DNA of 21,256 bases from a virus, in IMG/VR virus record IMGVR_UViG_3300009164_000420, positions 1-21,256 of that record; one strand, 5' to 3'. The translations under genes were made by a program, and so were the position numbers. Position 1 is the first letter of the stretch. Every line of letters starts with the position of its first letter. The notes under the pieces are model-generated. The model was not told the DNA's origin, ran no database searches, and saw only the letters and a program-made list of their open reading frames with translations. This document shows, one piece after another, positions 3,056 through 7,352 of the stretch.

Positions 3056-5743
3056 TTAATAACTGTTGTTTAGTAGCTGTTGGTTAATACTCTTGTTGTC
3101 ACTGCTGACACTGACCAAATCACTGACTTTTGCCAGACTTTCTCTCATTATGCTGGTATGCTCACGCATCAAATCACTTAGTACTGCATTAGTTTGTTCT
3201 ATTGTTTCTTTAAGTGTAACTGCCATTGGAACTTCTGTTGGTACTGGCATTGCAGGTTGTTTTGCTTGTAATACATTAGCACTATCTAATGTCATCTTGA
3301 GATCAGATAAAAATTGTGTAAATCCTACATCTAAGCGATCTGTTGGTCGTTCCACAAACGATCTAGCCATGTTTTCTATATTTTCAATTCCAGTCAGCTC
3401 TGGCTTTTGTTTAGCAAATACTGGTTCAGGTTCTTTGGCTACAGCAGGAGTAGCAGGCACAACTGGCACTGGTTCAGGTTCCTTGGGCACCGCCGGAGTC
3501 ATAGGCACAGGTGGTGGTGTAGTCTCTTTAGGTACTGCAAGTGTAACATTAACAGCCGGCACCGGTTGCGGTTCTGGTTCCTTGGGTACTGCAACTGTAG
3601 CAGGTACAGGTGTTGGCTCTTCTGGAGCCATTGCCATGGCCAGAGGTGTTTGAATATTAACCGGAATTGATTTTCCATCCGGAAGCGGAACTACAGCTTC
3701 AGAACCGTGTAGTTTTTCTATAAATCCACTAGACGGACCTCGTGCTATCCCGCCACGTGCTTTGCCTTCTTTTTCTTTAAACCATTCTCTGAAACCACCA
3801 ATTAAACCACCAACCAATCCACCGCCTACTGCTCCTACTACACTACCAGCCACTGTACCAATAACTGGTAACGGAACAGATGCTACACTACCCAGTGCTA
3901 CACCACCAACCATTGCGCCAGTGCCTGCACTTTCTAATGCGGCTCCGCCCACTCTCTTTACTTTGTCAAAAGTACTTTCTACAGGTTTGCCGTCGGCACC
4001 AAGTTTAGTATTTTTAATTTCAGCTTGAATTTGTCTAAATGTAGTATTAATCTCTTCAAGCATTTTAGCTGTCACTGTTGAATACCCTGCAATCAACGGA
4101 TCTAGTGCTTTTTGCAGTGCCAATGTTAAATCCTGTGCGGCTTGTGCCGCTTTGTGAACCGATTGAGTTAATTCATCTGAAGTAGTTTTTTGTGCGGCGG
4201 CATTTGCTTCTCCAGATCTTATAGCCTCTGCTGTCCAAGTCCTTCTGAATTCTAATTCTCTACCCATTTCTTCGGCCACTGCTTGTGCCGCTCCGCCTAC
4301 ATTGGCAAATCCAGCAATTCCAATCTCTGTAGCACCCGCATAGTCTTTACGCTGTTGTTCTGCATTTTTGGCACTAATTTCACGTGCTGTTATTTCATTT
4401 AACTCGCCTCGCTGATAGGTCTGATAATAATCATCCCCTGCATTTTTCAATCCTGAACTCATGGATTCCATGATAGCACCTGTTTTGTTAATAACGTTAC
4501 CGTTAAAAACAACTCTGTCCATAAAGTTTTTACGTTCCTGCTCGCTCATGTTTTCCATTGCACGAAGTGTTGCGGCACGCTGTTTAGGCTCCAACTTGGC
4601 TAGATTTTGTGCAAACGCCAGTTGTGTAGCTTGTTGTCTAACTTGTTCTGATTTTTTCTTGGCATCTTCTCCGCTGATTGCCGCAATAGTACGTAGGTTT
4701 TCAGCATATCGTTTAGTTGATTCTGCAACTTCTGCATCTGTTGCTTTTAGTGGGCCGCCTGCACCTGCCATTCGTTGCATGGTATCTGCTACCAAACTAG
4801 CCTGTTCTTCAAAGCTGTATCCTAAATTAAGCAATTCTTGTTTCATGGCGGCACCGCCAGAACGCAATGCTCCGCCAATTCGTTTAACACCGTCTGTTAC
4901 ACTGAGTCCTGCTCCTGCAATAGTTGTGCTGTTGGCACTAACAACATTTGAAAATTGATCAACGTTTAATCCAGCATCGCCAGCGGCATCCCTCATGCCC
5001 TGTAACCCATCAGCAAACAGTGCGCCAGATGCAGATGTACGTTGGTATGCCGATACAGTTTTTTCTAATTCTTTACTGAGTACTTCTATGCCAAACTTAG
5101 CCAACCTGCTGGTCGAATTGCCCATGAAACCCAGTGCCACACCGGCAACTTGTGCGGCAATACCCAGGCCTCGCAGGGCTGGCTTAGTTGATCCAGCCGC
5201 AATTTGTCCTACACCTTGAATACCGGCTGCGGCAGCTTGTACACCTTGATTGGCTACATCTACTGCACCGCTCATTAACCCAGCAGATAGTGTAAAACTT
5301 GATTGTCCGCTTTGCACACCTTTGACAAATCCGCCTGTGGCACTGGCAACAGAATTTCCCACTTGTGCAGACATTCTGGCAAAGCCTAGAGCCGCGTTTG
5401 ACATCGCGGCATTGAGATTTTGCCGAATTTGATCAGATGTTAGTTCATTGCGCTTTTCACGTAGTAACTTTTCTTCGCCTGCGTTTGTTGTGGCATCAAT
5501 TTGATCTTCAAGATCTTTAATAGAACTTTGAAGACTATTATACTCAGCAGTTTGCCCTTTTAATAACTTTTCAACCACTCTGCTGGCAGAACTGGTTTCT
5601 TTAAGACTCTTGGTTAACTTTTCTAAAGCCTCATTGGCCTTGATTATTCGTTTGGCTTCAATATCAGCTTCCTGGCTCCTGCCAGATCGTGCGATGGCAT
5701 CAGCTAATGCTTCACTCAGTCTATCATAATCAATATCGGCCAT
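3056..5743 (-). CDS. Tail tape measure protein (gp29-like role)
   Basis: The protein is 895 residues from the preferred ATG at 5743 (904 if the ATG at 5770 is used). The short start is chosen because it has AGGGA just upstream, while the upstream ATG lies at or before the transcript start predicted from the late promoter at 5781-5774. Features, numbered from the 5770 start: helical charged N-terminus (about 1-110), Ala/Gly-rich hydrophobic stretches (about 165-215), long helical middle (300-590), a Gly/Val-rich membrane-like segment (about 607-662), the tape-measure motif GGIARGPSSGFIEKLHGSEA followed by VVPLP (about 673-697), a Pro-rich repeat (716-787) and a helical C-terminus. Tape measures set tail length and are ejected ahead of DNA. 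The segment motif, size and divergent gp26-like neighbour support the call; sequence similarity to T4 gp29 is not obvious. Confidence 0.85.
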   Translation of the reverse strand: MADIDYDRLSEALADAIARSGRSQEADIEAKRIIKANEALEKLTKSLKETSSASRVVEKLLKGQTAEYNSLQSSIKDLEDQIDATTNAGEEKLLREKRNELTSDQIRQNLNAAMSNAALGFARMSAQVGNSVASATGGFVKGVQSGQSSFTLSAGLMSGAVDVANQGVQAAAAGIQGVGQIAAGSTKPALRGLGIAAQVAGVALGFMGNSTSRLAKFGIEVLSKELEKTVSAYQRTSASGALFADGLQGMRDAAGDAGLNVDQFSNVVSANSTTIAGAGLSVTDGVKRIGGALRSGGAAMKQELLNLGYSFEEQASLVADTMQRMAGAGGPLKATDAEVAESTKRYAENLRTIAAISGEDAKKKSEQVRQQATQLAFAQNLAKLEPKQRAATLRAMENMSEQERKNFMDRVVFNGNVINKTGAIMESMSSGLKNAGDDYYQTYQRGELNEITAREISAKNAEQQRKDYAGATEIGIAGFANVGGAAQAVAEEMGRELEFRRTWTAEAIRSGEANAAAQKTTSDELTQSVHKAAQAAQDLTLALQKALDPLIAGYSTVTAKMLEEINTTFRQIQAEIKNTKLGADGKPVESTFDKVKRVGGAALESAGTGAMVGGVALGSVASVPLPVIGTVAGSVVGAVGGGLVGGLIGGFREWFKEKEGKARGGIARGPSSGFIEKLHGSEAVVPLPDGKSIPVNIQTPLAMAMAPEEPTPVPATVAVPKEPEPQPVPAVNVTLAVPKETTPPPVPMTPAVPKEPEPVPVVPATPAVAKEPEPVFAKQKPELTGIENIENMARSFVERPTDRLDVGFTQFLSDLKMTLDSANVLQAKQPAMPVPTEVPMAVTLKETIEQTNAVLSDLMREHTSIMRESLAKVSDLVSVSSDNKSINQQLLNNSY
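3410..3625 (-). repeat. Pro-rich AVPKEPEP-type repeat within the tape measure gene
   Basis: About four degenerate copies of a Val/Ala-Pro-Lys-Glu-Pro-Glu-Pro unit separated by 11-16 residues of mostly Pro/Val/Thr/Ala (VAVPKEPEPQPVP, LAVPKETTPPPVP, PAVPKEPEPVPVV, PAVAKEPEPVF). At the DNA level the copies are visible on the plus strand as repeated ggttc(a/c)ggttc-type tracts. The segment is probably an extended rod or linker. Confidence 0.75.
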
Positions 5744-5794: not shown

Positions 5795-6643
5795 ATGGAA
5801 AATCAGCGCCAAAACCCCTTAGCCGGGCACTTTCGCCAGCCTGCAATTTATCTCACTTTACCCAGTCAAGGTCGATGGTGGGGCGAAAATGCATTGGATA
5901 TGCCTGCTAACCGTGAATTACCCATTTACCCAATGAGTACCAAGGATGAAATTACTTTGCGTACTCCAGATGCCTTGTTGAACGGGCAGGGCTTGATAGA
6001 TGTAATACAAAGCTGTTGTCCTAGCATTAAAAATGCTTGGGAAATGCCCAGTGTAGATGTTGACTCTGTGTTGATTGCCATACGTATTGCCACTTACGGC
6101 AACAGCATGAGTTTTGACAGCAAATGCCCACATTGTGGCGAAGATAACACACACGATGTGGATCTAGGTAAACCTTTAAGTAGCTTACAGTGCCCGGACT
6201 ACAGCAAATTGATGCATTACAAAGACTTGAAAATTAAATTCAAACCACAGCATTACTTTTCGGTTAATAAATCCAATATGATGGAATTTGAAGAACAAAA
6301 GATTATGAGTTTGTTAAATGCCACTGACATGGATCCAGACGATCGATCCAAACAGCTGACAGATAGCATGGGTCGATTATTTGATTTTGGTATTACTTCT
6401 TGTACGCAAAGCACAGAATATATTGAGCTAGATGACGGAACTAGAGTCACAGACGAAGAATTTATCAAAGAGTTTTATAAAAATGCCGAAAGCGCAGTGA
6501 TCACACAACTACAGAAGCAAGTTGCCAATTTTGCCACGCAGGCCAAACCCGACGGACTCAACCTGGGTTGTCAAGAATGTGTCAAAGAATACAAAGTTGA
6601 CTTAACATTTGATTACTCAAATTTTTTCGCCAAAGGCTTTTAA
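5795..6643 (+). CDS. 26: gp26-like baseplate / tail assembly protein (T4_baseplate family)
   Basis: A 282-residue protein. The stretch from about residue 38 (NRELPIYPMSTKDEITLRTP) through WEMPSVDVDSVLIAIRIATYG is typical of the family that includes T4 gp26, a protein needed for baseplate hub assembly but not found in the mature particle, so probably a chaperone. Two CxxC pairs are visible, C111/C114 (CPHC) and C259/C262 (CQEC), which could bind one metal ion; I infer this from spacing only. The ATG at 5795 has AGGA ten bases upstream. The gene is divergent from the tape-measure gene and its 3' end overlaps a second open frame in -1, discussed separately. T4 gp26 is shorter (about 208 residues). 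Confidence 0.8.
   Translation: MENQRQNPLAGHFRQPAIYLTLPSQGRWWGENALDMPANRELPIYPMSTKDEITLRTPDALLNGQGLIDVIQSCCPSIKNAWEMPSVDVDSVLIAIRIATYGNSMSFDSKCPHCGEDNTHDVDLGKPLSSLQCPDYSKLMHYKDLKIKFKPQHYFSVNKSNMMEFEEQKIMSLLNATDMDPDDRSKQLTDSMGRLFDFGITSCTQSTEYIELDDGTRVTDEEFIKEFYKNAESAVITQLQKQVANFATQAKPDGLNLGCQECVKEYKVDLTFDYSNFFAKGF
6619..6628 (+). promoter_or_regulatory. Putative -1 ribosomal frameshift signal (slippery sequence)
   Basis: In the gp26-like reading frame the codons TCA AAT TTT TTC create two overlapping X XXY YYZ heptamers, AAATTTT and TTTTTTC. Both allow tandem tRNA slippage by -1 into the open downstream frame. The zero-frame stop follows at 6641, 12 bases after the second heptamer. Confidence 0.6.
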
Positions 6644-6861
6644 CTTTAACCACTGATGCAGAAGTCATTGCGTTCTTGGAACGTTTTGACAAAGAGGTAA
6701 AAGCCTTAAAGGAAGAAGTACTGCGTATGTGCTGGTATATGCGAGGTGGCATATCCTTTAGTGAACTCATGGAGATGGGCAGTGCAGAACGCGAAATAAT
6801 TGCAGAAATTATCAAGGGCAATTTAGAAACTACTAAAGAAACACGTTTACCGTTTTTCTGA
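6628..6861 (+). CDS. -1 frame C-terminal extension of the gp26-like protein (probable programmed frameshift product)
   Basis: This frame is open from 6613 to the TGA at 6859-6861 and overlaps the end of the gp26-like gene. It has no ATG or GTG in a useful place: the first in-frame ATG is well inside, and the TTG at 6676 has no ribosome binding site. The product looks real: charged helical residues (DAEVIAFLERFDKEVKALKE), then MCWYMRGGISFSELMEM, SAEREIIAEIIKGN and TRLPFF. Just before the zero-frame stop lie two overlapping slippery heptamers, A AAT TTT (6619-6625) and T TTT TTC (6622-6628). A -1 slip would join residue 278 of the upstream protein to 77 further residues, giving 355 in all. The arrangement resembles the G/GT tail chaperones of lambda-type phages. 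Alternatively it is a separate small gene, perhaps in the T4 gp51 role, with a weak start. Confidence 0.7.
   Translation, partial: RQRLLTLTTDAEVIAFLERFDKEVKALKEEVLRMCWYMRGGISFSELMEMGSAEREIIAEIIKGNLETTKETRLPFF
6633..6707 (+). repeat. 10-bp inverted repeat forming a candidate frameshift-stimulating stem
   Basis: AAGGCTTTTA at 6633-6642 is perfectly complementary to TAAAAGCCTT at 6698-6707, with a 55-base loop. The stem begins 7 bases after the first slippery heptamer and 4 after the second, the spacing usual for stimulatory stems or pseudoknots. It also buries the zero-frame stop codon. Confidence 0.5.
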
Positions 6862-6903
6862 TATAGTCGCAATAAGACATTTATCTTTTCTTCTATCACT
6901 GTA

Positions 6904-6921
6904 AGACTTGCAAGCAAGTCT
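6904..6921 (+). repeat. 8-bp hairpin (AGACTTGC/GCAAGTCT)
   Basis: The arms AGACTTGC at 6904-6911 and GCAAGTCT at 6914-6921 are perfectly complementary with a 2-base centre. The hairpin lies directly in front of the terminator hairpin downstream of the gp26-like transcript and may be part of a bipartite terminator or an RNA 3'-end protecting structure. Confidence 0.5.
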
Positions 6922-6955
6922 ATTGCTTCGCTTGTCGCTCAGCAATCTTTTTTTT
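6922..6955 (+). terminator. Rho-independent terminator after the gp26-like gene
   Basis: The arms ATTGCT (6922-6927) and AGCAAT (6941-6946) form a stem whose 13-base loop can pair a little further, followed by C and eight T residues (6948-6955). It lies about 60 bases after the TGA of the -1 frame extension, the expected place for the end of this plus-strand transcription unit. Confidence 0.65.
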
Positions 6956-7065
6956 CATCTAACCTGTTTAAGGGTTATTACTTTTAATAATTCTAATCTC
7001 TTAACGATATTATCTAGATGTAGATCACAATTCGGCCCAGCAGGACAAAATTGTGATTGATGCAT
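6955..7065 (-). CDS. possible 36-residue small ORF
   Basis: The minus strand ATG at 7065 opens a frame reading MHQSQFCPAGPNCDLHLDNI, followed by a Lys/Leu/Val-rich helix-like second half, and ending at a TGA (6957-6955) that overlaps the ATG of a further 12-codon ORF. The composition is plausibly protein-like, with two cysteines flanking a Pro-Gly turn, but the ribosome binding site is weak (AGAG too far upstream) and no family is recognised. The 9-bp inverted repeat at 7024-7057 lies within it, so the pattern may reflect an RNA structure instead. Confidence 0.2.
   Translation of the reverse strand: MHQSQFCPAGPNCDLHLDNIVKRLELLKVITLKQVR
7024..7057. repeat. 9-bp inverted repeat with 16-base loop
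   Basis: ATCACAATT at 7024-7032 and AATTGTGAT at 7049-7057 are perfect reverse complements. No T-run follows on either strand, so it is not a canonical terminator. Confidence 0.5.
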
Positions 7066-7308
7066 TATCTGAGTGCTCTCTTCACACTAACTAAAAAAGA
7101 TTATGTATTGCTACACACGGAAGCGGTCATCCTGTACTCCCTACTTTAGATTCGATTATGACGGTACATTGCGCAAGCTCTAGTTAGCAAACTTGTCAAT
7201 GCATGGGTTGTATCTTTTTTACAGAGCCCAAATCTTTCAACGCCTTACGTTAGCGTCTGCCGTGTAGCGCCTAAGTCTGCGGGTGTTATTTCACACACAC
7301 TCAATAGG

Positions 7309-7326
7309 AATCGAGGTACCTCGATT
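7309..7326. repeat. 18-bp perfect palindrome AATCGAGGT/ACCTCGATT
   Basis: The 18 bases read the same on both strands without a spacer. It sits 27 bases beyond the stop codon of the nuclease gene. No T-run follows, so a binding site for a dimeric protein or a cruciform/RNA hairpin is as likely as a terminator. Confidence 0.55.
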
Positions 7327-7352
7327 AAACAAAGCTACGATGATATTGTGCC

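Follow-up and report, generated by a model that had tools for sequence, protein, structure and literature searches.

In phage lambda, the tail assembly chaperone comes in two forms, one short and one extended by frameshifting (PMC5009743): gpG and its minor -1 product gpGT, encoded close to the tape measure (Levin et al. 1993; Xu et al. 2004, 2013, 2014). A 2016 review named T4 as the exception to tail-chaperone frameshifting (PMC5009743). Vladimirov, Gautam and Davidson (2022, Virology 566:9-15) proposed chaperone frameshifting for T4-like phages, a study cited in PMC10885494 and PMC12846349; according to these citing papers, the TAC-N genes of T4-like phages carry polyT -1 signals (PMC12846349) and some T4-like phages use a two-gene solution (PMC10885494). 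In the Vandenendeviridae and Andersonviridae, represented by phage Adele, the chaperone gene has a -1 frameshift at a polyT motif that does not vary, close to the TAC-N end, and its extension is open in all relatives (PMC12846349).

The locus discussed here lies in a 21,256-nucleotide stretch of viral DNA, referred to below as the window. It is best explained, with a probability of about 0.9, as encoding a pair of tail assembly chaperones in a T4-like myovirus, a short form and a -1 frameshift-extended form whose synthesis would be stimulated by an RNA stem. As far as the citing papers describe the T4-like chaperones of Vladimirov et al. (2022), the common elements are a gp26-family TAC-N, a polyT site and a TAC-C in the -1 frame, and membership of the locus in this known frameshifting group is well supported at the sequence level. 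The sequence-only reading, which had proposed a frameshifted gp26-like chaperone, is upheld by the conserved site, stem and frame, although the idea itself is not new in view of what is cited from Vladimirov et al. (2022). As with lambda gpG/gpGT, a short form and a minor -1 form are predicted near a tape measure gene, and both are expected to be absent from the virion. However, the slippery site (T TTT TTC) differs from that of lambda, the gene is divergent from the presumed tape measure, and a conserved stem lies downstream; the comparison is one of arrangement. The Adele-type system is alike in its polyT frameshift and open extension, but it belongs to other phage families, its motif is GTTTTT, and the available part of PMC12846349 does not mention a downstream stem. 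The features of the locus, in window coordinates, are the following.

3056-5743, minus strand: divergent neighbour, a virion structural protein of about 895 aa, presumed tape measure (relatives' loci, RaK2 annotation)
5795-6643, plus strand: TAC-N, predicted gp26-like short tail assembly chaperone, 282 aa, 0 frame (PF12322, phrog_150, 68 viral-contig relatives)
6613-6861, plus strand: -1 reading frame, with TAC-C as the 79 residues decoded after the predicted slip, 6622-6858 (homologues, dN/dS, AlphaFold2)
6619-6625, plus strand: a further heptamer, A AAT TTT, canonical, not conserved (the codon before Phe-Phe varies)
6622-6628, plus strand: slippery heptamer T TTT TTC, most likely the working -1 frameshift site (in frame in 73/73 sequences)
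6633-6642, plus strand: 5' arm of the downstream RNA stem (fold, covariation, synonymous-codon null)
6698-6707, plus strand: 3' arm of the same stem (same evidence)

The product of the gp26-like frame matched the Pfam family T4_baseplate (PF12322) in a profile search with 50.6 bits against a curated cut-off of 24.5 (E 2.7e-13), as well as the baseplate hub family phrog_150 (E 1.1e-18), while TAC-C alone matched no Pfam or PHROG family. The gp26-like frame ending at 6641 and the overlapping -1 frame open from 6613, both noted in the sequence-only reading, are present; the former stops at a TAA (6641-6643) and the latter at 6859-6861. Counted from 6622, the peptide in the -1 register is FFRQRLL...LPFF, 79 aa, and the predicted fusion, TAC-NC, comes to 276 + 79 = 355 aa, which reproduces the earlier figure. 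TAC-N (5795-6640) also contains two Cys pairs resembling a zinc-binding motif, CPHC near residue 111 and CQEC near residue 262, which are absent in some relatives (for example L050, L053-L057 and L064).

An IMG/VR scan yielded 68 relatives, 64 of them with a readable 3' end; together with the window and eight isolated giant phages these make up 73 sequences, among which 50 distinct ones were used for codon counts. As the relatives share descent, all such counts overstate independence. Conservation of the heptamer, the stem and the -1 frame was checked in these relatives, and T TTT TTC, the stem and the frame are kept, the stem not in all of them. An in-frame TTTTTT(C/T) occurs near the end of the gp26 frame in 64/64 IMG/VR relatives, in the window and in 8/8 isolates, with TTTTTTT replacing TTTTTTC in a single sequence of the 73, that of Xanthomonas phage XacN1. 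The Phe-Phe pair is encoded by TTT TTC in 49/50 distinct sequences and by TTT TTT in the remaining one; this near-fixed choice contrasts with the gene as a whole, where TTT makes up 76% of Phe codons. The preceding codon ends in T in all 50 but is otherwise variable (AAT, AGT, CAT, CGT, GAT, TCT, GCT). Hence, although both heptamers reported earlier are present in the window in the correct 0-frame phase (X XXY YYZ), A AAT TTT varies among relatives, and the likely working site is T TTT TTC alone.

The -1 extension is found in every relative with a readable end and in the eight isolates, the L036 copy running into the contig end. Its peptide, FFRxRLL, is conserved starting at the slip site itself. 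The Arg at position 3 is present in 48/50 distinct sequences and is encoded by all four CGN codons (CGC 17, CGG 13, CGA 11, CGT 7). This mix of codons indicates that the -1 frame is constrained as coding sequence even ahead of any point where a start codon could operate. Past the slip site, the residues of the 0 frame vary among relatives, and the 0-frame stop lies, depending on the lineage, 7 to 40 nt 3' of the heptamer start, with the -1 frame continuing regardless. Further, the extension is homologous across 35 sequences (alignment A3) with invariant W, M, R and N residues, and is under purifying selection (median dN/dS 0.19 over 35 pairs). The other two frames of this region have several stops in every sequence.

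The perfect 10-bp stem described earlier (AAGGCUUUUA/UAAAAGCCUU, 6633-6642 with 6698-6707) is present, starts 4 nt after the downstream one of the two heptamers, and is part of the minimum-energy fold of the window segment (-25.5 kcal/mol, z = -2.66; z -6.23 for the fold of L021). It recurs in most relatives at the same spacing from the heptamer with differing sequences and compensatory changes, as in the arms GGCUUUUG/CAAAAGCC, GGCUCUUA/UAAGAGCC, GCCUCUUGA/UCAAGAGGC, GGAUCUUAAC/GUUAAGAUCC and CCAUCAAGUCC/GGACUUGAUGG. Against a register-free null, in which the downstream synonymous codons were randomised using the codon usage of the gp26 body, the stem was significant at 0.05 in 21/35 representatives, with a Fisher p of about 6e-16 that is approximate because the representatives are related. 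This null replaced one based on the codon usage of the extension itself (Fisher p 2e-12), which the stem may bias. The covariation score was 0.227 (alignment A1) compared with 0.125 for shuffles, 0/500 of which reached it, and 0.03-0.14 for slid registers. Over the 28 aligned sequences 78.9% of cells pair, above all 500 shuffles and all slid registers, whereas simply counting changed pairs or pair types gave values not clearly above the shuffles. Since the stem sits in a different register in a few lineages, RNAalifold returned no structure for all 28; it recovered the stem for the 23 in-register sequences. As these 23 are a chosen subset, weight is placed on the register-free null and on the count over all 28. 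The stem was undetected in lineages L016, L036, L046, L055, L064, L072, L074 and L077, and therefore may not be essential. In cyanophages S-PM2 and P-SSM2 a compact hairpin occupies its place. Overall, we infer from these patterns that the stem stimulates the slip.

Sequencing errors classically break a frame at a homopolymer, and an indel could in principle have split a single in-frame gene or marked a decayed one. The chance of this is negligible, as the same break falls at the same T6 in 73 sequences from independent metagenomes and from isolates of many hosts, conservation is seen on both sides of it, and the extension is under purifying selection. No relative with the extension fused in one continuous frame was found, an arrangement that would have argued against a programmed slip. 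Slippage of RNA polymerase, adding a U in the T6 run, would reach the -1 frame without any ribosomal slip and give an identical product, and a T homopolymer run is indeed present in every relative. However, polymerase slippage usually occurs at runs of about eight or more, and nearly all relatives have just six T here. The run invariably keeps the X XXY YYZ phase, and a stem with covariation lies at fixed spacing; both are explained by slipping of the ribosome and not of the polymerase, which makes the transcriptional route very unlikely.

Ribosomes could instead terminate at 6641 and begin anew in the -1 frame, so that the extension would be made as a separate small protein. A good share of the relatives have an ATG or TTG overlapping the stop (ATGA in Phosso, Atu_ph07, L038, L044 and L054, TTGA in others), and a separate extension gene is annotated in some records. 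Yet 16/50 distinct sequences lack an ATG, GTG or TTG of the -1 frame at a distance of up to 30 nt from the stop, and restart there thus cannot be general. The window is among them, in agreement with the sequence-only reading that its extension has no usable start. Further, conservation of the -1 peptide begins ahead of any such start and the slippery site is invariant, while the 0-frame stop and the nearby start codons are not conserved; no independent extension gene with a conserved ATG was seen among the 50 distinct sequences. As a general account, restart is accordingly about as improbable as polymerase slippage, if not slightly more so, though it is possible as an addition in the relatives with an ATGA or TTGA overlap.

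Under the favoured reading of a stem-stimulated frameshift, most ribosomes would end at the stop at 6641 and release the 282-aa TAC-N. A minority would slip back one base at U UUU UUC (6622-6628), where two Phe tRNAs could re-pair on UUU UUU, with the RNA stem starting 4-6 nt downstream of the heptamer acting as a stimulator. The slipped ribosomes would read the -1 frame to 6859 and produce the 355-aa TAC-NC with a helical C-terminal domain. That ribosomes slip at the locus, and how efficiently, we infer from its sequence. By analogy with lambda gpG/gpGT, many copies of TAC-N and few of TAC-NC would coat the tape measure, TAC-C would recruit tail-tube subunits, and both forms would leave before the tail is completed. 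Tape-measure binding, a need for the pair in making tails and its absence from the virion are likewise expected by analogy. In T4 itself, the two forms would be supplied by genes 26 and 51.

The AlphaFold2 model of TAC-C is all-helical and confident (pLDDT 90.9), and that of TAC-N is good (pLDDT 85.4). A Foldseek search of both models against the PDB gave no significant solved structure, though folds may still be alike, and a PDB sequence search gave no useful match. The chaperone role is hence based on family and gene context and not on fold. Compared with BFVD, the TAC-C model is similar to uncharacterised phage proteins that are short and stand alone (best E 0.025, TM 0.75); its match to the Moogle tape measure chaperone (E 2.5) is at chance level and serves as a lead only.

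The presumed client of the chaperone is the divergent neighbour at 3056-5743. More than 50 of the related loci also carry, on the opposite strand, a relative of this protein, and the RaK2 relative is annotated as similar to a tape measure protein. No sequence similarity to T4 gp29 was detected, so the neighbour is a presumed tape measure. It lies beside a portal gene. On the other side of the locus, the roughly 490 bases past the -1 stop (6862-7352) contain no listed ORF of at least 60 aa and are followed by a PDDEXK/RusA-like resolvase gene on the other strand. tRNA and Rfam scans of the window, this gap included, gave no relevant match.

The arrangement extends well beyond the immediate relatives. 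The end of the gp26 gene carries TTTTTTC in S-PM2, P-SSM2, KVP40 and phiW-14 and TTTTTTT in HTVC008M and phiM12, each followed by an extension of about 55-65 residues. The abstract of the study proposing T4-like chaperones is said to describe frameshifting as conserved in several T4-like groups, with T4 using genes 26 and 51. The frameshift-type isolates have one PF12322 gene per genome, compared with two in T4, namely genes 26 and 51, and two in Campylobacter phage CP220. Seven long relative contigs (G001-G007), some of which may be partial genomes, gave one match each; the window is a 21-kb fragment, so its own count is not genome-wide. The two CP220 genes (L103, L101) lie about 9 kb apart, and one of them has a C-terminal stretch resembling the T4 gp51 tail (LYPFEREIFISLI). 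T4 gp51 has an extra C-terminal stretch that is alike to the cyanophage-type extension, whose profile aligned with gp51 207-246 in hhalign (E 1e-4, 59% probability). The window-group extension is homologous to that of RaK2-like jumbo phages (E 7e-17, hhalign) and weakly similar to the cyanophage type, and its link to gp51 runs via the latter. The equivalence of the pair to gp26 and gp51, suggested in the sequence-only reading, gains from the gene counts and from this indirect match, while the window's own extension aligned directly with gp51 at 4.8% probability and out of register.

Records of the isolates (L070-L077) carry no annotated fusion. In Phosso, BF and Kaldavass the extension is listed as a hypothetical protein of its own, Atu_ph07 has a shorter ORF, and the RaK2 and PA5oct records lack it.

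A wider proposal, to which we give somewhat less than even odds, is that chaperone frameshifting through much of the T4-like superfamily relies on a conserved stem whose pairing, and not its sequence, is kept, and that in T4 genes 26 and 51, each expressed separately, take the place of an RNA-tuned ratio. Under this proposal, the stem of the window's group may be long-range, with a loop of about 30-60 nt that may hold an inner hairpin or form a pseudoknot.

Together, this locus and the related ones point to a broad occurrence of the frameshift among T4-like phages, giant phages included, which would make T4, with its two genes, the special case. The present additions are the range of metagenomic and giant phages that share the frameshift site and the covariation of the stem over dozens of metagenomic relatives. 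The covarying stem is the least described part of the system and offers a direct handle on how the TAC-N:TAC-NC ratio is set.
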